Source: a virus. Taken from it: a stretch of 38,950 bases of DNA. How positions within the stretch are numbered: position 1 is the stretch's first letter; every line of letters begins with the position of its first letter. Positions 124 to 38,950 of this stretch are shown piece after piece. Below the pieces are notes generated by a model. The model had not been told where the DNA came from. It worked only from the letters and a program-made list of their open reading frames with translations, and searched no databases. The DNA lies in the IMG/VR virus record IMGVR_UViG_3300017951_000004, positions 1 through 38,950 of that record; one strand, 5' to 3'. The position numbers and the translations under genes were made by a program.

Positions 124-1156
124 GGCGTTTATCTCTGCCAGAACAAGCCGTGCGGAGCAACCAGAGGCGCTACAAGGTGTTCACTCAGACAATGTGATGC
201 TAGTGGGTGACGAAGCGTCTGGTATCCCTGAGAAAGTGTTTGAGGCTGCGGCTGGCTCGATGTCAGGTCATAACGCAACCACGATTCTGTTGGGGAATCC
301 CGTACGCAATAGCGGGTTCTTTTATGACACTCACAACCGTTTGAAGGGTGAATGGTGGACGGCTCGAGTATCGTGTGCGGATAGCCCCCGGGTGTCAGCT
401 GCGTACATTGCTGAAATGGCCAGTCGGTATGGTGAGGAAAGTAACGCGTTTCGCATTCGTGTGCTTGGTGAGTTCCCGGCCAGCGACGACGATACGATTA
501 TCCCGATGGAGCTTTTGGAAGCCGCACAGCACCGAGACGTTGCGCCATCTAAAACGGCCCGGGCGGTGTGGGGTCTTGACGTTGCGCGGTTTGGTTCTGA
601 CAGTTCGACATTGTGTAAGCGCAGCGGAAACGCTGTAACGGAATCGATTAGACGCTGGCGCAATCTAGATTTGATGCAGTTGTGCGGCGCAGTAGTTTCA
701 GAGTTTGAGGCGCTGCCAGTTGAAGAACGGCCAATTGAGATACTGGTAGACTCGATTGGTTTAGGTGCCGGTGTTGTTGACCGGCTGCGGGAACTTAACC
801 TGCCAGCTCGAGGAATAAACGTCAGTGAGTCCCCGGCGTTAGGCCAGACCTATCGAAACTTACGCGCCGAGCTTTGGCATAAAGCGAAGGCGTGGCTTGA
901 GGCCCGAGACTGCAAACTACCAAAAGACGAAGACCTAATTTCCGAGCTCGCAACGGTGCGGTATAAGTTTACGAGCAACGGCAAGCTGCAGGTCGAGAGC
1001 AAAGACGAAATTAGAAAGCGCGGCCTGTCGAGCCCGGACAAAGCCGACTCGTTTGTTCTGACGTTTGCAAGTGATGCGGCAACGGTTCAGTACGGCTCTA
1101 GTTATCAATCTCAATGGGCGCAGCCTATCAAACGAAACATTCCAAGGTTGGTTTAG
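1..1156 (+). CDS. terL: Terminase large subunit, C-terminal part (gene continues from 38574)
   Basis: This is the ATPase/nuclease motor that pumps DNA into the prohead. The reading frame is open from base 2 and joins the N-terminal part at 38574-38827 to give 469 residues, a usual size. In joined numbering the Walker B segment is MLVGDEAS with D155/E156. The RNase H-like nuclease domain follows, with acidic positions in VWGLDVARFGSD, EILVDSIGLG and, near the end, DKADSFVLTF, typical of TerL nuclease domains. Portal, scaffold and capsid genes follow directly. An internal TTG at base 8 is not a real start, because the frame continues upstream to Walker A. The packaging mode (headful or cohesive end) is not determined. 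Confidence 0.95.
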   Translation, partial: SQLYDALFAELKRWVKELPDALNQLLEVKSERIELKSSPTEAFISARTSRAEQPEALQGVHSDNVMLVGDEASGIPEKVFEAAAGSMSGHNATTILLGNPVRNSGFFYDTHNRLKGEWWTARVSCADSPRVSAAYIAEMASRYGEESNAFRIRVLGEFPASDDDTIIPMELLEAAQHRDVAPSKTARAVWGLDVARFGSDSSTLCKRSGNAVTESIRRWRNLDLMQLCGAVVSEFEALPVEERPIEILVDSIGLGAGVVDRLRELNLPARGINVSESPALGQTYRNLRAELWHKAKAWLEARDCKLPKDEDLISELATVRYKFTSNGKLQVESKDEIRKRGLSSPDKADSFVLTFASDAATVQYGSSYQSQWAQPIKRNIPRLV

Positions 1157-1269: not shown

Positions 1270-3420
1270 TTGGCCGAGATTGAAGACGAAATTTTAGAAA
1301 TTGCTGACGACCTTTTAGAAGACGATCAGCCCGTAGACGACACAGACGAGAAGCTACAAGCCGCTGTGTCGGCTGAGTTGGGCGACGCTATTGATTATGT
1401 AGACGACATTATTTCGCCAGAACGTGCCGAGGCCACCAAGTACTACAAGGGTGAAAAGTTCGGCAACGAAATAGAGGGCGCGAGCGAGTATGTATCAACA
1501 GACGTTCGCGATGTCGCGCTTGGCATATTGCCAAATCTGATGCGCATTTTTTGTGGAGCAGAGAGAGTTGCTGAATTTATCCCAGTTGGCCCAGAGGATG
1601 TGGAACCGGCTGCGCAAGCTAGTGACGTCGTTCATCACATTTTTGAAAAAGAAAATCGCGGATTTACGACACTTTATAACGTCTTTAAAGACGCGCTAGT
1701 ACGCAAGACCGGTATTGTTAAATGGTGGTCTGAAGAAATAAGAGAGACGACCGAGTACGAATACAGTGGGTTAGGCGAAGCCGAATTTGCGCTATTGTCG
1801 CAAGACCCCGACGTCGAAGTTTTGGAAATGGAAGTTCAGCAGGACTCCGATCCAAACGACCCAATGGGCATGATGATGATGCCAGCGGTTTACGAGTGCC
1901 GCATTCGACGAACAACAAAACGTCGCAAGTATTGCGTCGACGCTGTACCACCGGAGGAGTTCTTAATCGACAGACGAGCTCGCAACGAAGACAACGCGAG
2001 TTTGGTTGCGCATCGACAGGTGCTGCCTGTTTCGAGATTGGTCGAGATGGGTTACGACTTTGAGATGGTCAAAGAGCACGCGATGAGCGGCGAAGACGTT
2101 CTCGAAATAAACGACGAACGTTATCAAAGAAACCCAGACGAAACTATTTTCACAAACTCTCGAGCTGATACAGCTGCCCAAAAGGTTCTGTATATCCAAG
2201 CGTACATTCGTTACGACCGTGACGGTGATGGTATCGCCGAGCTGCTGAAAGTTTGTTGTTTAGGAAGCGCGCACAAAGTTGTGTCTGTTGAGGGCGTTGA
2301 CGAAGTGCCGTTTGCAATGTTCTGCCCTGACCCAGAACCACATACCGCGATTGGTCTTTCTGAGGCCGACAAGGTTATGGATTTGCAGCGAAGCAAATCA
2401 CAAATAATGCGCGATATGTTTGATTCACTTGCGCAATCGATCCGACCTCGTATGGGTGTCGTTGAAGGTCAAGTGAATATGTCAGACGTTTTGAATAACG
2501 AGACCGGCTCTCCGATTAGGATGCGAGCGCCGGGTATGGTTACGCCGTTCTCGCAACCGTTTGTTGGACAAGCTGCGTTCCCGGTCTTGCAATACCTTGA
2601 CGACGTCAAAGAGACGCGCACGGGTGTTACAAAGGCCAGCATGGGCCTAAACGCAGACGCTCTTCAAAGTTCAACCAAGGCTGCAGTCGCAGCAACCATC
2701 TCAGGGGCGCAAGGCCGCATAGAGTTGATTGCTCGCATCTTTGCCGAAACGGGACTACGGCGAATGTTTCGGGGTATTCTGCGGATGCTGATTCAGCATC
2801 AAGATCAACCAATGTTGCTGCGGCTGCGCAATAAGTTTGTATCGGTTGACCCGCGAGTTTGGAATGCTGACATGGACGTTGAGGTTAACGTTGCGCTGTC
2901 TGCTACCAGCAATGAAGAAAAGTTAGCAGCGCTAACTGAAATTAACGCCAAGCAAGAAAAGGCGTTGTTGTCACTTGGGTTTAATAACCCGCTCGTAACT
3001 CTGAAACAGTACCGCGACACTCTAGGAAAAATTATTGAACTGGCCGGGTTTAAAGACACGTCTATGTTCTTTAACGAGGTCGCGCCTGATTGGATGCCGC
3101 CTCAGACACCACCAAAACCCACTCCCGAAGAAATGTTGGCACAGGTTCAGGCGCAATCCATTCAGGCCGACGTCATGAAAAAACAAGCCGACATCGCTCT
3201 CGAGCGGGAAAAGATGATGCGCGAGGATGACCGAGCCCGAGACAAACTTGAGGCTGACGCGATGCTCAAAGCAGCCGAGATACAAGCAAAGTATGGAACC
3301 GAAGTCGACGTTGCACACATTCACGCAATGATGGAACGAGACAGAGAAGCAATTAAACAACAGGGAGCTGTTACGCAGGCAGCTGTGCAGCCGCCTACAC
3401 CGCAACAGCCACTTAACTGA
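1270..3420 (+). CDS. Portal protein (podovirus/P22-like type)
   Basis: This 716-residue protein would form the dodecameric ring at the capsid vertex through which DNA enters and leaves. I assign it by position (terL-portal-scaffold-capsid), by size, and by resemblance to long portal proteins of P22-type phages: an acidic N-terminus, a central part with the conserved feel of VPFAMFCPDPEPHTAIGLS followed by a long helical region, and a Q/E/K-rich C-terminal coiled coil from about residue 620 (the barrel in P22). The start is a TTG with little Shine-Dalgarno sequence. The frame is open only back to 1240, so TTG 1270 (or CTG 1240) must be used. The stop overlaps the next start (TGATG). Confidence 0.85.
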   Translation: MAEIEDEILEIADDLLEDDQPVDDTDEKLQAAVSAELGDAIDYVDDIISPERAEATKYYKGEKFGNEIEGASEYVSTDVRDVALGILPNLMRIFCGAERVAEFIPVGPEDVEPAAQASDVVHHIFEKENRGFTTLYNVFKDALVRKTGIVKWWSEEIRETTEYEYSGLGEAEFALLSQDPDVEVLEMEVQQDSDPNDPMGMMMMPAVYECRIRRTTKRRKYCVDAVPPEEFLIDRRARNEDNASLVAHRQVLPVSRLVEMGYDFEMVKEHAMSGEDVLEINDERYQRNPDETIFTNSRADTAAQKVLYIQAYIRYDRDGDGIAELLKVCCLGSAHKVVSVEGVDEVPFAMFCPDPEPHTAIGLSEADKVMDLQRSKSQIMRDMFDSLAQSIRPRMGVVEGQVNMSDVLNNETGSPIRMRAPGMVTPFSQPFVGQAAFPVLQYLDDVKETRTGVTKASMGLNADALQSSTKAAVAATISGAQGRIELIARIFAETGLRRMFRGILRMLIQHQDQPMLLRLRNKFVSVDPRVWNADMDVEVNVALSATSNEEKLAALTEINAKQEKALLSLGFNNPLVTLKQYRDTLGKIIELAGFKDTSMFFNEVAPDWMPPQTPPKPTPEEMLAQVQAQSIQADVMKKQADIALEREKMMREDDRARDKLEADAMLKAAEIQAKYGTEVDVAHIHAMMERDREAIKQQGAVTQAAVQPPTPQQPLN

Positions 3421-3709: not shown

Positions 3710-4714
3710 ATGAGCGAAGCAAATACCGATACTGGAATCACCTCCACCGGTAACACACTAAATAACATTGAAGATACAACAAATGCTTTTGCTGCATTTC
3801 TGTCCGGCGAAGAGCCGGGAAACCGGGAAGACAGCGAGGCGCAGGCCGATGAGGCCATTGAGGTCGAAGCTGAAGCGGAAGAAAGCGAGGAATTAGAAGC
3901 CGAAGCGGAAACCGATCTTGACGATGAAGTTGATGATCGTGAAGAGGAAGTCGATTCACCGGTTTACACCGTTAAAGTTGACGGTGAAGAAATCGAAGTG
4001 CCGATCGATGAACTCTTAAACGGTTACAGCCGAACTCAAGATTACACTCGCAAGACTCAAAAACTGGCCGAGGAGCGTAAAGCTGCGATGGCTGAGATTG
4101 ATAATGTGAGGCAAGAGCGTGCACAGTATTCGCAACTGTTAGACGTGATGAGGCAGCAAATTGAGGGTAACCAAGCTAATCAAGTTGACTGGGATAGACT
4201 GCGCAGTGAAGACCCAATCGAGTATTCGGTTCAGTGGGCAGAACACCAACGCCAGCAAGAACGTTTGCAGGCGGTCAGAGCAGAGCAGCAAAGGTTAGCC
4301 GAAATTCAACAGCAGGAACAGTTAGCACAAGTTGAGCAGACGGTTCAAAAGGAAAGAGAGTTGCTGGTTCAGGCTATACCTGAATGGTCGAAAGCCGAAA
4401 CGGCACAATCCGAAAAAGCCGGAATCCGAGATTTTGCAAAACGTGTCGGATTCACAGAACAAGAAGTAGCAAGCATTGTTGACCACCGAGCGGTCGTTAT
4501 GCTGCGAAACGCGTATCTGTACGACAAACTTATGTCTAACAAAGGACAGGTAAAACCTGTTCAAAAATCTGCTTCTCCGGTTATGAGACCGGGGTCTGCC
4601 AACACCGCGCCTAAACCGTCCAGCGACCTGTCCAAAGCTAAACAGCGACTCGCAAAAACTGGTTCGCTGCAAGACGCAGCAGCCGCTTTTAGTCTTCTTT
4701 TAGAGAAAGGTTAG
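3710..4714 (+). CDS. Capsid scaffolding protein
   Basis: This 334-residue protein sits immediately before the major capsid gene. The N-terminal 80 residues are extremely acidic (runs such as EVEAEAEESEELEAEAE). A short conserved-looking segment follows (YTVKVDGEEIEVPIDELLNGY, about residues 84-104), then Q/E/R-rich coiled coil (about 120-220) and a basic, proline-containing tail. The VDGEE...ELLNGYSRTQDYTRKT pattern is typical of scaffold/assembly proteins upstream of DUF5309-type capsids. The role is to organise capsid subunits in the prohead and then exit. No protease domain is fused to it. Confidence 0.8.
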   Translation: MSEANTDTGITSTGNTLNNIEDTTNAFAAFLSGEEPGNREDSEAQADEAIEVEAEAEESEELEAEAETDLDDEVDDREEEVDSPVYTVKVDGEEIEVPIDELLNGYSRTQDYTRKTQKLAEERKAAMAEIDNVRQERAQYSQLLDVMRQQIEGNQANQVDWDRLRSEDPIEYSVQWAEHQRQQERLQAVRAEQQRLAEIQQQEQLAQVEQTVQKERELLVQAIPEWSKAETAQSEKAGIRDFAKRVGFTEQEVASIVDHRAVVMLRNAYLYDKLMSNKGQVKPVQKSASPVMRPGSANTAPKPSSDLSKAKQRLAKTGSLQDAAAAFSLLLEKG

Positions 4715-4716
4715 TC

Positions 4717-5655
4717 ATGGCAAAGGTAACAAACGCATTTGATACATATACCGCGAAAGGTAATCGAGAAGACCTCTCGAATATGATCTACAACATCGAC
4801 CCCTTCGACACACCCGGGGTTAGCGCAATCGGCAGAAGCAACGTCAGCAACACTGTTTTTGATTGGCAGACAGAAAGTCTTCCATCAGTAAGCACGACAG
4901 CTGAACTTGAAGGTTTTGAGCTTTCACGATCTGCTTCTACGCCAACGGTTAGACAGTCAAACATCTGTCAAATCATGAAGCGTGACGCAACTGTTTCAGG
5001 CTCACAGCAGGGCATGAACTCAGCTGGCCGCGCTAACGAGATGGCGCACCAAATGGCATTGTCAGCAAAAGCGCTTAAGCGTGATGTTGAGAAAGTTATT
5101 TTTGGTACAAACGCTGGTAAAACTGCTGGAGATGCAACGACAGCAAGAACAACTCGAACAGTTGAGTCTTGGTTGTCTACAAACTCTAACAGAGGTACTG
5201 GTGGTGCTGATGCTGCATCTGAAACAGCTGGCGCAACAGACGGTACACAGCGTGACCTTACAGAAACTTTGTTGAAGAACACTCTTCAGACTTGTTACAC
5301 GAACGGCGCAGAGCCAACAATGCTCATGGTCGGCCCGGTTAACAAAGTTGTTGTTTCTGGATTTACCGGTCGTTCATCTGCACGTCAAAACATTGCAGCT
5401 GACACCGTTCAACAGTCAGTTACGGTTTACGCATCTGACTTTGGTGAAATCAAAGTGATTCCTTCACGATGGATTCGTGAGCGAACAGCTCTACTTCTCG
5501 ATCCAAACTTTGCTGCTGTTGCATACTTCCGCAACTTCCAGCGTAAGCCAATCGCAGATATCGGTGATGCAAAAACCGAAATGCTGATTGTTGAGTTTGG
5601 CCTCGAGATGAAGAACGAAGCTGCTCACGGCGTTATCGCTGACTTGAACACTTAA
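4717..5655 (+). CDS. Major capsid protein (DUF5309 / SU10-like HK97 fold)
   Basis: This 312-residue protein follows the scaffold with a two-base gap and an AAAGG ribosome site. The N-terminus (AFDTYTAKGNREDLSN, then IDPFDTPG) is characteristic of the DUF5309 / SU10 capsid family. The C-terminal part (DFGEIKVIPSRWIRER, then AVAYFRNFQRKPIADIG) corresponds to the region preceding the capsid P-domain end in that family. It forms the icosahedral shell. A strong terminator lies 10 bases downstream, so capsid mRNA can be made in excess over the downstream tail genes. Confidence 0.93.
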   Translation: MAKVTNAFDTYTAKGNREDLSNMIYNIDPFDTPGVSAIGRSNVSNTVFDWQTESLPSVSTTAELEGFELSRSASTPTVRQSNICQIMKRDATVSGSQQGMNSAGRANEMAHQMALSAKALKRDVEKVIFGTNAGKTAGDATTARTTRTVESWLSTNSNRGTGGADAASETAGATDGTQRDLTETLLKNTLQTCYTNGAEPTMLMVGPVNKVVVSGFTGRSSARQNIAADTVQQSVTVYASDFGEIKVIPSRWIRERTALLLDPNFAAVAYFRNFQRKPIADIGDAKTEMLIVEFGLEMKNEAAHGVIADLNT

Positions 5656-9282: not shown

Positions 9283-9579
9283 ATGACTCCATTTAAAGAC
9301 GAAGCAATTTACGAGCTGTACCCAAACGCAGAACGGGTCATTGGTGGCGTAACCGTTTTAGATTCTGACGGTAACGAAATATCGATTGATGAGTCTTTGG
9401 TCAACGCAAAGATGGCCGAAATGCAAGCTGCTTATGACGCGCAAAATTACGCGCGAAACAGAGCACTTGAGTACCCACCAATTGGTGACCAGCTAGACGA
9501 CTTGTTTAAGCAAGGCGCGTTTTCATCAGACATGGCGGCAAAGCTGCAAGCCGTTAAAGACAAATATCCTAAAAGTTAA
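9283..9579 (+). CDS. Small fibre-associated protein (assembly-chaperone-like), copy 1
   Basis: This 98-residue protein ends in the block EYPPIGDQLDDLFKQGAFS.DMAAKLQAVKDKYPK, which is common in small genes placed behind phage tail-fibre genes. It is paralogous to the product of 10636-10902: the last 40 residues are almost the same. The N-terminal half (DEAIYELYPNAERVIGG, VLDSDGNEI) is acidic and probably binds the fibre partner. A chaperone or fibre-attachment role is inferred from context and not proven. Confidence 0.8.
   Translation: MTPFKDEAIYELYPNAERVIGGVTVLDSDGNEISIDESLVNAKMAEMQAAYDAQNYARNRALEYPPIGDQLDDLFKQGAFSSDMAAKLQAVKDKYPKS
9469..9492 (+). repeat. 24-base perfect direct repeat, copy 1, containing a 12-base palindrome
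   Basis: Identical to 10792-10815 in the paralogous partner gene. It contains the perfect palindrome CACCAATTGGTG at 9476-9487 and encodes the conserved EYPPIGDQ motif. Confidence 0.9.
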
Positions 9580-9592
9580 ATTGGAATAAATT

Positions 9593-10639: not shown

Positions 10640-10902
10640 ACCATAAAGCTGTATTTGCACTATACCCTAACGTTGTTACCGTTGATGACGGCGCAGGTGC
10701 AATTGACGCCAACGGTAACGCGGTTGCAATAGATATTAACGCCGTAAACGCGTGGGTTGATCCAGACGCATACAAGTTTAGTAGGGCATCAGAGTACCCA
10801 CCAATTGGTGACCAGTTAGATGCCTTGTTTCATGCTGGAGTTTTCCCCGCAGACATGGCAGCGCAAATTCAAGCGGTCAAAGACAAGTACCCAAAGTCGT
10901 AA
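10636..10902 (+). CDS. Small fibre-associated protein, copy 2
   Basis: This 88-residue paralogue of the 9283-9579 product has an N-terminal half (AVFALYPNVVTVDDGAG, then AIDANGN) that is diverged. The C-terminal 40 residues (EYPPIGDQLDALFHAGVF, AVKDKYPKS) are nearly the same. It is coupled to the fibre gene upstream by an ATGA overlap. Each copy may be specific for its own fibre, as expected for fibre-specific chaperones. Confidence 0.8.
   Translation: MNHKAVFALYPNVVTVDDGAGAIDANGNAVAIDINAVNAWVDPDAYKFSRASEYPPIGDQLDALFHAGVFPADMAAQIQAVKDKYPKS
10792..10815 (+). repeat. 24-base perfect direct repeat, copy 2
   Basis: Identical to 9469-9492. Recombination between the two copies would delete 1323 bases, including one fibre gene, and fuse the two partner genes in frame. 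Confidence 0.9.
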
Positions 10903-11022
10903 ATGGCTAAGGTTAAGTTTTCTGAACACATAAAGCCGTTACCTAAAAGGACTAAGCTGACAAAAGCTCAACGTAAACGGAGAACTAAAAAACCAAACGC
11001 GAAAAAGCAATTATTTAAATGA
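10903..11022 (+). CDS. 39-residue strongly basic protein
   Basis: The ATG follows the previous stop codon directly and the TGA overlaps the next start (ATGA). The small frame thus fills the gap between two genes exactly, which supports its being translated. About two fifths of its residues are Lys or Arg (KRTKLTKAQRKRRTKK in the middle), so nucleic-acid or membrane-phosphate binding is likely. No family is recognised. Confidence 0.6.
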   Translation: MAKVKFSEHIKPLPKRTKLTKAQRKRRTKKPNAKKQLFK

Positions 11023-11485: not shown

Positions 11486-11810
11486 AAGCAAGTACGCTGA
11501 ATATAACAGGGCTTATTATGAGGCCAACAAAGAAAAGATTAAACGAGCTGCAGCAAAGCGTCGAAACGAAATTAGAGCTTGGTGGAAACAATTTAAACGA
11601 ACGCTGGTTTGCCAGCATTGTGGTGAAGATGCACCGGAATGTATCGACTTACACCACATTAATGATTCTAAAAATGACCGCACAGACAGTGCGTATAAAT
11701 GGGTTAGGAACGCGCGTAGCAAGGAATGGATTTTAAATGAGGTAAAGACTAACTGCATTCCTTTGTGTGCTAATTGCCACAGAAAAGAGCACGCAAAGGA
11801 ATACAGTTAA
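11475..11810 (+). CDS. HNH endonuclease
   Basis: This 111-residue single-domain nuclease has the zinc pair C46/C49, the HNH core DLHHIND with H60/H61, and C98-x-x-C101-H with H106 near the end. The N-terminus is a basic helix (EYNRAYYEANKEKIKRAAAKRR) like DNA-binding arms of free-standing phage HNH enzymes. The start is TTG 11475, overlapping the previous gene by 11 bases; no better start gives the basic arm. HNH genes more often sit beside terminase, where they aid packaging, so this place inside the lysis block suggests a homing-type insertion. Confidence 0.85.
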   Translation: MAAKSKYAEYNRAYYEANKEKIKRAAAKRRNEIRAWWKQFKRTLVCQHCGEDAPECIDLHHINDSKNDRTDSAYKWVRNARSKEWILNEVKTNCIPLCANCHRKEHAKEYS

Positions 11811-23256: not shown

Positions 23257-23307
<51 letters not shown>

Positions 23308-23410
23308 TTTTAATGTTCCCATGACATCCCACAATGGCCCTAAGTGTCTGTTTTGTCTTGACTAGGTGTTCCCTCGACGTCACGTTAAATCAGTAAACAT
23401 CCGGCTAATT

Positions 23411-23451
23411 TGCCGACACGCTGCCGACACGGGAAAGAGGAACTGCCGACA
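23411..23451 (+). promoter_or_regulatory. attP: Right arm-type integrase sites of attP (three repeats)
   Basis: TGCCGACA occurs at 23411-23418, 23422-23429 and 23444-23451, with spacings 11 and 22. The last copy ends on the A of the integrase start codon, so integrase bound there could repress its own translation or transcription. Confidence 0.75.
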
Positions 23452-24611
23452 TGAGCATTACGAAGGCAACCATTAAAAACGCTGAACCAACAGACAAAAA
23501 ATATTTTGTGTGGGATACAAAACTATCCGGGCTGGGCATTCGTGTTATGCCGTCTGGGGTTAAGTCTTGGGTGCTGTCATACCGCACTGAAAGTGGCGTG
23601 AAGCGGCTGCAAACGTTAGGACGAGCTGACATATACCACCCAGACCAAGCTCGCGATGTAGCGCTCAAAATTTTGTTAGAGGCAAAGTCAGGGAAAGACC
23701 CGGCGTCTATTGCCGTTTCGAGACGACACACACCAACGGTGTCTCAGTTGTGCGACCAGTTCGAGTCAGTTCATTTTCGTTTACTCAAACCCGGCACAGC
23801 CAAAAACTATCGAGCTCTTGTTAGGCGATGGATCAAACCGCGATTTGGTGATCGGTTAGTAACCAACATTATCCCGGCAGACATCCGTCAGTGGAAAAGC
23901 GACGCGACAAAACCTGTCACGTTTAATCACGCGCGAAACTTAATGGCACAAATGTTCGACTACGCAGAAGAAAATCATTGGATCGACAATAACCCTTTAA
24001 GAACGCGCAGCATAAAAAATTATGTCGTACGTCAGCGAAAACGTTATTTAACATCAAGCGAAGTGCCACGTCTTGCAGCTGCATTATCTGAGTATAGCGC
24101 TCAGTCCGATATACGGTTTAGGTTTGCATCACTTATATCGCTGTTACTTCTCACCGGCTGCAGACTAAACGAGCTGGCTCAAGCTAAAGTCGAGTGGATT
24201 GATTTTGAACAGCAGAAAATAAACTGGCCGGATACAAAAACCGGAGCGGATAGTTTGTACATACCCAACGCCGCGATAGAACTTATGCGCGAGTTGGTGC
24301 GAAGAGTACCCGGCAACCCATACCTCATCGCTGGCGCACGTTTAGGCCAACCGTTAGTCGGGGTGCGTAAAATGTGGCGCGAGGTATGCGTGATGGCAAA
24401 CATAGACAACTTACGCGTTCATGATTTGCGTAAGTCGTTTGCATCGATTGCGTTGGCTGAAGACATAGGGCTAGACGTCATCGCCGGGCTACTGCGTCAC
24501 AGCAACCCAGCAATAACAGCAGAGCGCTACGCTTTTCTCATTGAAGAGAAAAGAGCAACTGCTGCAGAAGCTGCGGCCAACGCTATTTCTAAACGATTGT
24601 CCGCGTCATAA
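23451..24611 (+). CDS. int: Tyrosine integrase
   Basis: This 386-residue site-specific recombinase inserts the phage into the tRNA-fMet gene. The N-terminal DUF4102-type arm-binding domain (about residues 1-90, WDTKLSGLGIRVMPSGVKSW) is followed by a SAM-like core-binding domain (about 100-200). The catalytic domain holds R238 (TGCRLNEL), K263 (TKTG), H324 and R327 (HDLRKS), H350 (LLRHSNP) and nucleophile Y360. All six catalytic residues are present, so the enzyme should be active. It starts 143 bases from the attP core, with the last arm site touching its ATG. It converges on and overlaps the Xis-like gene by 23 bases. Confidence 0.96.
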   Translation: MSITKATIKNAEPTDKKYFVWDTKLSGLGIRVMPSGVKSWVLSYRTESGVKRLQTLGRADIYHPDQARDVALKILLEAKSGKDPASIAVSRRHTPTVSQLCDQFESVHFRLLKPGTAKNYRALVRRWIKPRFGDRLVTNIIPADIRQWKSDATKPVTFNHARNLMAQMFDYAEENHWIDNNPLRTRSIKNYVVRQRKRYLTSSEVPRLAAALSEYSAQSDIRFRFASLISLLLLTGCRLNELAQAKVEWIDFEQQKINWPDTKTGADSLYIPNAAIELMRELVRRVPGNPYLIAGARLGQPLVGVRKMWREVCVMANIDNLRVHDLRKSFASIALAEDIGLDVIAGLLRHSNPAITAERYAFLIEEKRATAAEAAANAISKRLSAS

Positions 24612-33794: not shown

Positions 33795-34112
33795 ATGAAG
33801 GATATTGTGGCTTTTTTGTTGCTGTTTAACTGCGAATGGGCGGCGCTGGTGCTGCCGTCCAACGCGACGTTTTTTTTAGACGGGGTGATATACGTCCGGC
33901 CAGATATGTTGCGGCACGAGGTGCTCGTTCATGAGGGTTACCATCAATGCCAATACGCTAAAGCCGGGAATAAACCGGCCAAAGATTGGGCCGAATGGAA
34001 ATACCGAGAGGATAGCGCCAAAGCTATCGAGTTAATGTGGCTCTCAGAGCACTCAGGAAGCTCTCTGGGCGTTTTAAAGGCGAAAGATATATATGGGTAT
34101 AGGAAACAATGA
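33795..34112 (+). CDS. Small HExxH protein, putative metallopeptidase
   Basis: This 105-residue protein carries MLRHEVLVHEGYHQCQYAKA with H46-E47-x-x-H50, the zincin motif, followed by Q and a small helix as in compact peptidase-like domains. A possible third ligand lies in the following helix (WAEWKYREDSAKAIELM). The N-terminal 20 residues are hydrophobic and may be a signal or buried strand. It overlaps the next small membrane-protein gene (ATGA). No substrate is evident, and the fold is small for an active protease. Confidence 0.7.
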   Translation: MKDIVAFLLLFNCEWAALVLPSNATFFLDGVIYVRPDMLRHEVLVHEGYHQCQYAKAGNKPAKDWAEWKYREDSAKAIELMWLSEHSGSSLGVLKAKDIYGYRKQ

Positions 34113-34847: not shown

Positions 34848-35072
34848 ATGAGGAAATGGAAAGCCGACCTTGAGCGGCTCGAGGCAATGCCAGACGAAGT
34901 GATACTTGAGATGGCGAATGGCCTGAATGGGGTTAGCGAAGTTCTAAGGGTATTGGGGGTTAACGGTCGTGCGTTTGAGGAATGGTTATCGAAAGACGAT
35001 AGGCGGCTCAAATGGTGCGAGCACAAAATGAAATCGTTATGGGGTACAGATGGCGGGACAACCAAAGACTAG
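34848..35072 (+). CDS. HTH-only paralogue of the terminase small subunit
   Basis: This 74-residue protein (MPDEVILEMANGLNGVSEVL, then GVNGRAFEEWLSKDD) aligns by eye with the N-terminal HTH of the next gene product (LGPETIEEMLSDGMTLEDVT, then DVPKGALNKWLDQPE). It stops where the oligomerisation domain would begin. It overlaps the terS gene by 23 bases. It may bind the same packaging site and modulate packaging, or regulate the promoter region upstream. A remnant is less likely, since the frame and coupling are intact. Confidence 0.75.
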   Translation: MRKWKADLERLEAMPDEVILEMANGLNGVSEVLRVLGVNGRAFEEWLSKDDRRLKWCEHKMKSLWGTDGGTTKD

Positions 35073-35517
35073 AAAAGCATTAGTGAAGCTCAACGCGTTA
35101 GGCCCAGAGACAATCGAGGAGATGTTGTCAGACGGCATGACGTTAGAGGATGTAACCAAGACGCTAGACGTGCCAAAGGGTGCGCTGAACAAATGGCTTG
35201 ACCAACCAGAACAGCAGGGTCTATACGCACGCGCGCGAGCCAAGGCGGCGCATAACTTGGCCGAACAAGCGATAGCCATTGCTGATGGCGCAGACAGCGA
35301 CGGCGACGTGGCGCGCGACCGGCTGCGGGTGGACACGCGCAAGTGGATCGCATCCCGATGGAACGCCAGCGCTTACGCTGACCAGAAAAACGCGCAAGTC
35401 ATTGTTAATGTTGGGGATTTACATCTATCCGCACTGCGGAATAGGACTATCGATGTCAACGACGTACACGAGGTTGACACTATTGAGTCAAGCAGCTCTC
35501 CGAGCTTAGAGGAATAA
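35050..35517 (+). CDS. terS: Terminase small subunit
   Basis: This 155-residue DNA-recognition subunit has an N-terminal HTH (about residues 18-52), a helical middle (ARARAKAAHNLAEQAIAIAD) and the signature RLRVDTRKWIASRWNASAYA with D-Q-K after it, typical of Sf6-like small terminases. It selects viral DNA and hands it to TerL. An acidic tail follows, which may contact TerL. It is separated from terL by about 3 kb of accessory genes. The repeat cluster just upstream is a natural candidate for its binding site. Confidence 0.88.
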   Translation: MAGQPKTRKALVKLNALGPETIEEMLSDGMTLEDVTKTLDVPKGALNKWLDQPEQQGLYARARAKAAHNLAEQAIAIADGADSDGDVARDRLRVDTRKWIASRWNASAYADQKNAQVIVNVGDLHLSALRNRTIDVNDVHEVDTIESSSSPSLEE

Positions 35518-37011: not shown

Positions 37012-37296
37012 ATGCAAATTGAGATCATTGAAGACGGCAAGTCGGTTCAGTACAGCACTAAACGCTGGATCGACATCTATCTAGCCCATAGACGCCTCAC
37101 AGACCTTCAGGACGTTGCTGACGGCGCTGTAGGCGTGTGGCTGGATGGTAAGCCGTCTGATGTGGCTAAAGCGCTCTCAGCGGCCTCTGAGTGGCTCTCA
37201 GAGCGTGACCGCAAGGATAGAGAGGAACGTAAACGGCTTAACAGCAAAAAGCGCCCGTTGCGTTTAGAGGATGTGTGGAACAGGAGAATTAAGTAA
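37012..37296 (+). CDS. Small helical protein of unknown function
   Basis: This 94-residue protein has a short beta start (MQIEIIEDGKSVQYSTKRWI) and then helices ending in a very basic region (ERDRKDREERKRLNSKKRPL). I prefer ATG 37012 because the longer frame from 36964 overlaps the preceding gene. The stop overlaps the recombinase start (TAATG), so this protein is made together with the recombinase and may be its partner. No family is recognised. Confidence 0.68.
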   Translation: MQIEIIEDGKSVQYSTKRWIDIYLAHRRLTDLQDVADGAVGVWLDGKPSDVAKALSAASEWLSERDRKDREERKRLNSKKRPLRLEDVWNRRIK

Positions 37297-37958
37297 TGAC
37301 GACTTACGGTTACATACGGGTGTCGACTGACGAGCAGATTGACGGCACGAGTCTAGACGATCAGCGCCGCCAGATAACAGGCAACGCGTTATCTCACGAT
37401 CTCGAAATCGATGAGTGGATTGAGGACGGGGGTGTTTCGGGCGCAGAGGCATTCTTTGACCGGCTGGGCCGTCACGGTGTCAGGCTGGTCGATGGCGATA
37501 CGATTATTGTTGCGAAGCTGGACAGGTTTAGCCGTGACGCGGCTGACGCGCTGTCGACCATTCGCGAGCTGGGCCGGTTGAATGCGCGTTTGATTATTAA
37601 CGGGCATGGCGACGTGATGGACGAGACGAACGTCGTTGGCCGGTTGATGCTGGAAGTTATGGCGGTGTTTGCTGGCCATGAGCGCCGGGTGATTAAGGCA
37701 CGGCAAAAAGACGGACAGAGAGCGAAGCGAGCGCGGGGTGGTCATATTGGTGGCAGCGCGCCGTTTGGGTTTCGTGTTGAGGGTTCTGGTAAGTCTGCGG
37801 TGTTGGTTGCGGACAAAGAGCAGCAAGACGCGATTGTCACGATGAAAAGTTTGCGCGACGACGGGATGAGTTTCCGGCGCATATCAAAAGTGATTGAAAC
37901 GCAGTATGGGTTTACAATATCGCACGAGGCAGTCCGACGTGCGGTAGGAGTTATATGA
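37296..37958 (+). CDS. Serine recombinase (resolvase/invertase type)
   Basis: This 220-residue enzyme has the catalytic start YGYIRVSTDEQ with nucleophile S10 and R8. AKLDRFSRDAADAL (the KLDR-SR motif) and a long helix near LEVMAVFAGHERRVIKAR follow. The C-terminal part, after GHIGGSAPFGFRV, is a short helix-turn-helix region (SFRRISKVIETQYGF, ISHEAVRRAV). This length is near that of resolvases and invertases, much smaller than serine integrases. It overlaps the protease gene (ATGA). Because a tyrosine integrase is also present, its task is probably resolution or inversion, for which no site has been proven. Confidence 0.92.
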   Translation: MTTYGYIRVSTDEQIDGTSLDDQRRQITGNALSHDLEIDEWIEDGGVSGAEAFFDRLGRHGVRLVDGDTIIVAKLDRFSRDAADALSTIRELGRLNARLIINGHGDVMDETNVVGRLMLEVMAVFAGHERRVIKARQKDGQRAKRARGGHIGGSAPFGFRVEGSGKSAVLVADKEQQDAIVTMKSLRDDGMSFRRISKVIETQYGFTISHEAVRRAVGVI

Positions 37959-38377
37959 CAACGATAGCGACGAACGGGAAAGTGATTGCGGCAGATAGCC
38001 GTATAACGGGTGACTACATCGACAGTCACCCGAAATTATTTCAGATAGGCGATAGTGTGTTTGGGATCGCTGGAATGATGACGCGGGTTTTAAAAGTCAT
38101 TGATTGGTTGTCGATGGGCTGTCCAGAATCAAACAAGCCTGACGTTAACGACGACGGGTTCACTTTGTTGCAAGTTTGTTCTGAAGGGATTTTTTATTGG
38201 GACGGAAATTTACGGCCGGTGCAGATGCGTGGGCCGTATGCGGCGATTGGTTCAGGGTCACAATACGCGATGGGCGCAATGCACGCTGGTAAGAACCCGC
38301 GCCGTGCGGTTGAGATTTGTTGTGAACTTGACGAGTCGACAGCGCCGCCGATCGTTGTAATGAGAGTGCCGCGTTAG
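37955..38377 (+). CDS. Proteasome/HslV-like Ntn hydrolase
   Basis: This 140-residue protein starts MTTIATNGKVIAADSRITG. After Met removal the first residue is Thr1, the nucleophile of HslV and proteasome beta subunits. D13 and K26 (SHPKLFQIGDSVFGIAG) fit the D17 and K33 of HslV by eye, and the late GSGSQYAMGAMHAGKNPRRA corresponds to the conserved GSGG-type segment with its helix. It is slightly shorter than HslV. It starts in the recombinase stop (ATGA) behind TAGGAG. No HslU-like ATPase is encoded, so it may work alone, use host HslU, or process virion proteins. Confidence 0.85.
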   Translation: MTTIATNGKVIAADSRITGDYIDSHPKLFQIGDSVFGIAGMMTRVLKVIDWLSMGCPESNKPDVNDDGFTLLQVCSEGIFYWDGNLRPVQMRGPYAAIGSGSQYAMGAMHAGKNPRRAVEICCELDESTAPPIVVMRVPR

Positions 38378-38526
38378 CGGCGTTTGTTGATTAGCGAGAA
38401 AAGCGTGGCGACCTTTTCTTCGAGGACTTTTATTTTGACGTTTACTTCAGCGCGAAACGCCACACCAATCGCGCCGACTGCGATGAGCGCGGATAAGATT
38501 GGCCAAAGTTCTAAGAAGGTTTCCAT
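38374..38526 (-). CDS. 50-residue membrane protein on the minus strand
   Basis: The frame gives an N-terminal membrane helix (about residues 5-24, LELWPILSALIAVGAIGVAF) followed by a coiled coil (VNVKIKVLEEKVATLFSLIN) and a KRR end. This resembles tiny phage membrane proteins with a VLEEKV-type coil. The stop TAA shares the TTAG tetranucleotide with the protease stop TAG on the other strand. No ribosome site is seen before the ATG; a TATATAT lies close upstream, so a leaderless message is possible. Holin-like or regulatory role unproven. Confidence 0.6.
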   Translation of the reverse strand: METFLELWPILSALIAVGAIGVAFRAEVNVKIKVLEEKVATLFSLINKRR

Positions 38527-38573: not shown

Positions 38574-38950
38574 ATGGAAAATGAAAATCCCTTTATAGAT
38601 TTTTTAGACAGGTACGGAAAAAAGCCGGTTCTGTTTGTGACCGAAGTTCTTGGTGTTAAACCAGACAAATGGCAGACAGAATTTTTGAACGCGATTGCTA
38701 AAGGCCACAGGCGCATTAGCGTTCGTTCGGGTCACGGTGTCGGCAAGTCAACTGCGGCCTCATGGGCGATGCTTTGGTATATGCTGACCCGCTACCCGGT
38801 AAAAGTTGTGGTGACCGCTCCGACGTCCAGTCAGTTGTACGACGCACTTTTTGCCGAACTGAAGCGCTGGGTCAAAGAATTACCCGACGCGCTTAATCAG
38901 CTGCTCGAAGTTAAGTCAGAACGTATCGAGCTCAAGTCGTCGCCAACCGA
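38574..38950 (+). CDS. terL: Terminase large subunit, N-terminal part (continues at base 1)
   Basis: This part starts at ATG 38574 and carries the ATPase Walker A SVRSGHGVGKSTAASW with K58, preceded by the adenine-region helix (PDKWQTEFLNAIAKG). Bases 38828-38950 are the same as 1-123, where the gene goes on, for 469 residues in all. No ribosome site is clear; a second ATG at 38581 is out of frame. The gene follows a convergent membrane-protein gene with a 47-base gap. Confidence 0.95.
   Translation, partial: MENENPFIDFLDRYGKKPVLFVTEVLGVKPDKWQTEFLNAIAKGHRRISVRSGHGVGKSTAASWAMLWYMLTRYPVKVVVTAPTSSQLYDALFAELKRWVKELPDALNQLLEVKSERIELKSSPT
38828..38950. repeat. Right copy of exact terminal direct repeat
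   Basis: Identical to bases 1-123. Joining the ends restores an intact terL reading frame without a frame shift. Confidence 0.97.

Follow-up and report, generated by a model that had tools for sequence, protein, structure and literature searches.

The protease gene and its genome

The window, by which we mean the whole stretch of 38,950 nucleotides analysed here (IMG/VR record IMGVR_UViG_3300017951_000004), encodes at 37955-38377 on the plus strand a protein of 140 aa that starts MTTIATNGKVIAADS / MTTIATNGKVIAADSRITG and belongs to PPH, a phage family of proteasome/HslV-like Ntn threonine proteases (PHROG 1040, PF00227, AlphaFold model and fold matches to BPH and HslV). Bases 1-123 recur at 38828-38950, and this 123-bp direct (terminal) repeat at both ends shows the sequence to be a complete, circularly mapped genome of ~38.8 kb cut within terL. 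The 5' part of terL lies at 38574-38950 (+) and its frame resumes across the repeat at 124-1156 (+), as seen by translation over the circular join; the PPH gene precedes terL by 196 bp and has the same orientation.

The genome carries terL, portal and major capsid protein (MCP) genes, which marks its tailed-phage origin, and its head module is of the SU10/LUZ24-like type. It comprises an SU10_portal protein (1270-3420, +; PHROG 1216, PF23899 E=1.7e-199), a dedicated head scaffolding protein (3710-4714, +; PHROG 3927, E=2.1e-66), a LUZ24-like SU10_MCP (4717-5655, +; PF17236 E=1.1e-87, PHROG 1328, tblastn relatives) and an SU10_adaptor; the terminase small subunit is encoded at 35050-35517 (+; PHROG 1482, E=2e-18). 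The preliminary description of the locus stated that this module has no recognisable prohead protease and that no HslU-like unfoldase is encoded, and both statements held: profile searches of the whole window record with S78, CLP_protease, S49 and S77 gave no match, and the hslU profile (TIGR00390), which was positive in control genomes, matched neither the window genome nor any of 49 records of phages with PPH.

Directly upstream lies a gene for a small serine recombinase of the resolvase/invertase type (37296-37958, +; 220 aa; PF00239 Resolvase E=8.7e-28, PHROG 95/125), whose stop codon shares a 4-nt ATGA overlap with the PPH start (37955-37958, +). Translational coupling of the two genes had been proposed, and the overlap is indeed there, but the partner is not conserved: any Met-Thr start of the form ATGAC includes an out-of-frame TGA, and overlaps of this type occur in 39 of 89 PPH clusters with varying upstream ORFs. 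As the overlap partner changes between phages, we rule out the serine recombinase as a functional partner.

Several other features of the genome may be recorded here. Between PPH and terL, and convergent with PPH, a small ORF on the minus strand (38374-38526) encodes a hydrophobic, membrane-like stretch and gave no family match. At 23258-24611 a tRNA-Met gene (-) adjoins an integrase, likely marking the attachment site; phiM5, another LUZ24-like phage, likewise has a tRNA-Met gene, which adjoins its MCP gene. Two genes of the tail-fibre region have in common a 122-nt repeat of 72% identity (9460-9581 and 10783-10904) ending ...QAVKDKYPKS, and a 22-nt inverted repeat with 91% complementarity is found at the end of an HNH endonuclease gene (11750-11809).

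Family, fold and predicted active site

PHROG 1040, 'peptidase HslV family', was the sole PHROGs match of the protein (E=1.5e-31, 138 residues covered), and we equate this cluster with PPH on grounds of size and phage range rather than of the published PPH alignments. The Pfam Proteasome model (PF00227) scored 32.5 bits against a cut-off of 22.4, while no curated HslV model of NCBIfam was reached, only arc_protsome_B appearing at 18.7 bits against a cut-off of 224. By tblastn, relatives were found in 547 phage records, all at ≤60% identity; the closest solved sequences are two proteins of the beta-proteobacterial proteasome homolog (BPH), and a profile built from 87 sequences matches proteasome beta5, HslV and BPH.

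With 86 relatives from viral contigs, AlphaFold returned a model with pLDDT 94 and pTM 0.88, whereas the model from the single sequence (pLDDT 32) was set aside. Foldseek against the PDB placed BPH first (5ovt, with epoxomicin), followed by HslV and 20S beta, all with probability 1.00 and E down to 6.7e-9, and among viral models it ranked phage proteins that bear the names proteasome subunit, HslV or Ntn hydrolase. The product therefore has the alpha-beta-beta-alpha Ntn fold of the proteasome superfamily and no other. In the model, helix 42-53 runs straight into strand 70-75, from which we conclude that the second helix of HslV (H2) is missing.

The residues expected of a threonine protease of this superfamily are in place. 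The preliminary description had noted an N-terminal Thr after Met removal together with D13 and K26, and these were located at codons 37958-37960 (Thr2, the predicted nucleophile, Thr1 of the mature protein), 37994-37996 (Asp14; Asp13 mature, corresponding to Asp17 of HslV/proteasome) and 38033-38035 (Lys27; Lys26 mature, corresponding to Lys33), all on the plus strand; the numbering of proteasome residues follows PMC8665760 and convention. A GSG motif (Gly99-Ser100-Gly101, 38249-38257, +) aligns with the Ser129 region of the proteasome in both beta5 and HslV. Because most members of our set of 141 relatives were gathered by a degenerate N-terminal pattern that fixes Thr2 and Asp14, these two columns (Thr in 139 and Ser in 2; Asp14 in 140 of 141, with one gapped row) are not independent there, and we rely for them on an alignment of 19 diverse phage sequences picked without regard to the motif. 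In this alignment, residue 2 is Thr in 17 sequences and Ser in 2, and Asp14, Lys27, Gly99 and Gly101 are invariant. Lys27 lay outside the search pattern, and in the larger set it is present in 141/141, as are Gly99 and Gly101; position 100 is Ser or Thr in 131/141 and Asp126 is found in 132/141. Profile alignment to solved proteins brought the conserved PPH columns onto the proteasome Asp17, Lys33, GSG and Asp166 regions, and the equivalents of Thr1, Asp17, Lys33 and the oxyanion Gly47 (Thr2, Asp14, Lys27 and Gly40) are all conserved. Thr1 and Lys26 were thus not lost in homologues, the catalytic residues being retained in relatives at 22-40% identity, and we infer from this conservation that PPH is catalytically active.

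Taken together, the profiles, the fold and the lack of hslU support the core of the earlier reading, according to which the phage encodes an Ntn protease resembling HslV and the proteasome but not its ATPase. It is not a novel kind of protein. Fuchs, Alva and Lupas (2021) named PPH as proteins of ~140 residues from tailed phages and hosts, with no H2 and no AAA+ partner (PMC8665760), an HslV without HslU had been noted in a Salmonella jumbo phage in 2020 (PMC7823757), and the kind is already described in hundreds of phages. The window gene is a further member, agreeing with PPH in every feature checked: its 140 aa, without additional domain (it had rightly been called fused to nothing), agree with the published ~140 aa, and the cluster, the N-terminal Thr with Asp, Lys and Gly, the absence of H2, of a C-terminal extension and of an AAA+ partner, and the tailed-phage origin are shared as well. 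No structural difference was found; what it adds to PPH is a LUZ24/SU10-type temperate phage with a clear terL neighbour. The papers that we found report neither enzyme activity nor an oligomer for any PPH.

BPH (PDB 5ovs/5ovt/5ovu), the top PDB match in both fold and sequence, is like the window protein a threonine protease that apparently has no unfoldase, but it is bacterial, longer (183-201 aa), only ~22-26% identical, and possesses H2 and a long acidic pore loop. HslV (ClpQ) shares the Ntn fold, the TTI start and the Asp, Lys and GSG positions (TM-score 0.7-0.8 by query length); unlike the window protein it has ~170-180 aa, contains H2 and works with HslU, which this phage does not encode.

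Linkage of PPH to terL and its other neighbours

The published PPH survey reported no function-suggesting genomic context (PMC8665760). We located terL with a single PHROG 2 profile on whole records; in 36 of 53 PPH records both genes were found and could be parsed. In 20 of these 36 the distance between PPH and terL was no more than 3 kb, with the two genes on the same strand in all 20, whereas random placement expects 4.8. As about half of the near-terL records form one cluster, the cluster-reduced figure is the one to be used: 11 of 25 dereplicated PPH clusters (60% identity) lie ≤3 kb from terL against 3.1 expected (p ~1e-4). Moreover, the two genes share a strand in 31/31 records with PPH ≤10 kb from terL. 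An earlier test (27/75 vs 8/240) was set aside as biased, the terL queries having come in part from PPH neighbours. Linkage to terL is thus a new context signal for this family.

Other neighbours vary. In Jerseyvirus and Kagunavirus PPH adjoins the holin and endolysin genes, in Jedunavirus it lies among tail genes, in EL near terL and phuZ, in Epa16 near ligase and helicase genes, and in Vibrio AL-2 between primase and ATPase genes; the upstream partner differs from phage to phage. The phiM5 putative peptidase (MF074189 2090-2611), the second PPH found in a LUZ24-like phage, also adjoins terL, but it shares 32% identity with the window protein, has 173 aa and is encoded downstream rather than upstream of terL. 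Complete LUZ24-like relatives are few, and PPH is present in one of nine; given this and the variable upstream partner, PPH appears to be an accessory gene.

In some phages the neighbourhood holds further proteases. Locus L103 (IMGVR_UViG_3300046530_000052; G034:56497-58444) contains three tandem PPH paralogues (1141-1821, 1929-2576 and 2573-3184), which might form hetero-oligomers; rings mixing active and inactive subunits were ruled out, as all three copies keep Thr, Asp and Lys. Bertelyvirus CcrBL1 has four PPH matches, of which the two close to the ends of the record have identical scores and could represent a single repeated gene. In phiAH14a a phage metallopeptidase gene (PF18894; locus L008, 7437-8060) directly follows PPH, and similar HExxH genes follow it in related loci (four clusters), so that another small protease is encoded between PPH and the terminase genes. 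We rejected these PhageMetallopep/HExxH genes as a partner, since they are confined to certain lineages and none was found in the window; the window ORF at 33795-34112, considered as an M48-like partner, matched no family and showed no resemblance to the phiAH14a gene.

Possible roles of PPH

Our preferred reading, to which we assign a probability of roughly 0.45, is that PPH is a threonine protease that works independently of ATP, probably as a ring; its gene would be an accessory one, placed near where the late genes begin, and the enzyme would probably act late in infection. Host methionine aminopeptidase would expose Thr1. As in proteasome beta and HslV, this residue would then attack peptide bonds, aided by Asp13, Lys26, the GSG motif and Gly39 of the oxyanion hole. 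The subunits would most likely self-assemble into a closed ring like that of BPH, the nearest solved relative, although the missing H2 means that the quaternary structure may differ. The enzyme would most likely work without a dedicated AAA+ unfoldase and cut unfolded or flexible proteins or peptides, and the targets would probably be loose phage assembly proteins (e.g., scaffold) or host proteins. We infer the late timing from the position of an accessory gene near terL at the start of the late genes; it is not universal, since in several phages, Epa16 and Vibrio AL-2 among them, PPH lies among middle-type genes.

Alternatively, PPH might serve host takeover or counter-defence by destroying one specific host protein, a role to which its patchy accessory distribution over many phage groups, its changing neighbours and, in large phages, its place among accessory-type genes would be suited. 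However, in the annotated loci that we read, known counter-defence genes were not consistently associated with PPH, and the clearest conserved linkage is that to terL; hence, we hold this role to be unlikely.

The preliminary description had suggested that the protein might mature the capsid or scaffold. Prohead proteases (S78, S49, ClpP-like, S77) are likewise phage-encoded proteases of the head region, although they differ from PPH in their unrelated fold and serine chemistry and none was found in the window genome. It could therefore be supposed that PPH acts as the scaffold/prohead maturation protease of phages without the usual S78, ClpP-like or S49 enzymes. The linkage to terL and the phiM5 gene order terL-PPH-portal-scaffold-MCP speak for this, as do the counts: when PPH records were compared with random viral contigs of about the same size, S78 was found in 0/53 of the former and 3-4/40 of the latter, ClpP-like proteases in 0/40 and 6/40, and S49 in 1/40 and 5/40. 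By clusters, any serine prohead protease was present in 1/25 with PPH against 13/37 PPH-free controls (Fisher p=0.005), a rarity that may reflect lineage, because many PPH phages have dedicated-scaffold or MuF-type heads. The presence of PPH does not follow the capsid module, however: eight of the nine complete phages with the LUZ24/SU10-type capsid of the window do without it, phiM5 being the only carrier, and in the GenBank entry of phiM5, scaffold, MCP and portal are flagged as detected in the particle proteome, whereas PPH is not. Furthermore, PPH co-occurs with S77 (RHph_TM3_3_6), S49 (G028) and, weakly, S78 (G069), PPH phages mostly have dedicated-scaffold or MuF-type heads, and in Jerseyvirus the gene belongs to a holin/endolysin cassette at a distance from the head genes. 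Hence, PPH is not an essential capsid-maturation protease of the LUZ24/SU10-type capsid, and maturation as a general or required role is unsupported; as a role in phages without the usual prohead proteases we consider it quite unlikely, though it keeps some plausibility because of the terL linkage and the under-representation of prohead proteases in PPH phages.

PHROG 595, 'head maturation protease', matched in 12/48 PPH records but was rejected as a co-occurring protease: the phiAH14a match is a Mu F protein (PF04233) and the Jersey one is annotated as head morphogenesis. The label also catches Mu F-like minor head proteins and is thus an annotation trap. SPN3US and EL have T4-type prohead proteases of their own, which a PF03420 search did not detect.

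HslU is present in many proteobacterial hosts, the PPH fold is close to that of HslV and the phage has no unfoldase of its own, so that PPH might hijack the HslU of the host, or another of its unfoldases, by serving as a substitute protease chamber, and thereby turn degradation towards host or defence proteins. We regard this as very doubtful, since BPH, the nearest fold, apparently needs no unfoldase, and since the H2 of HslV is missing from our model, as stated for PPH in general (PMC8665760), though this last argument is weak. Equally improbable is that the Ntn site serves something other than general proteolysis, e.g., as a specific peptidase or a connectase-like ligase: the superfamily also includes connectase, a ligase that is monomeric (PMC8665760), and PPH is very compact and without H2, but BPH and HslV, its closest relatives of known structure, are ring proteases and PPH lacks the connectase S3/S4 insertion.

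It would be a highly speculative extension to see in PPH a class of threonine-dependent scaffold/prohead proteases, encoded beside the terminase in phages with dedicated-scaffold or MuF-type heads and replacing the missing serine proteases; if true, this would bring a proteasome-type enzyme into capsid assembly. To the published description of the family our analysis adds the terL linkage, the confounded rarity of serine prohead proteases, and the close capsid relatives that manage without PPH. The linkage provides a starting point for the function of PPH and points to phiM5 and the Jersey-type phages as laboratory systems.
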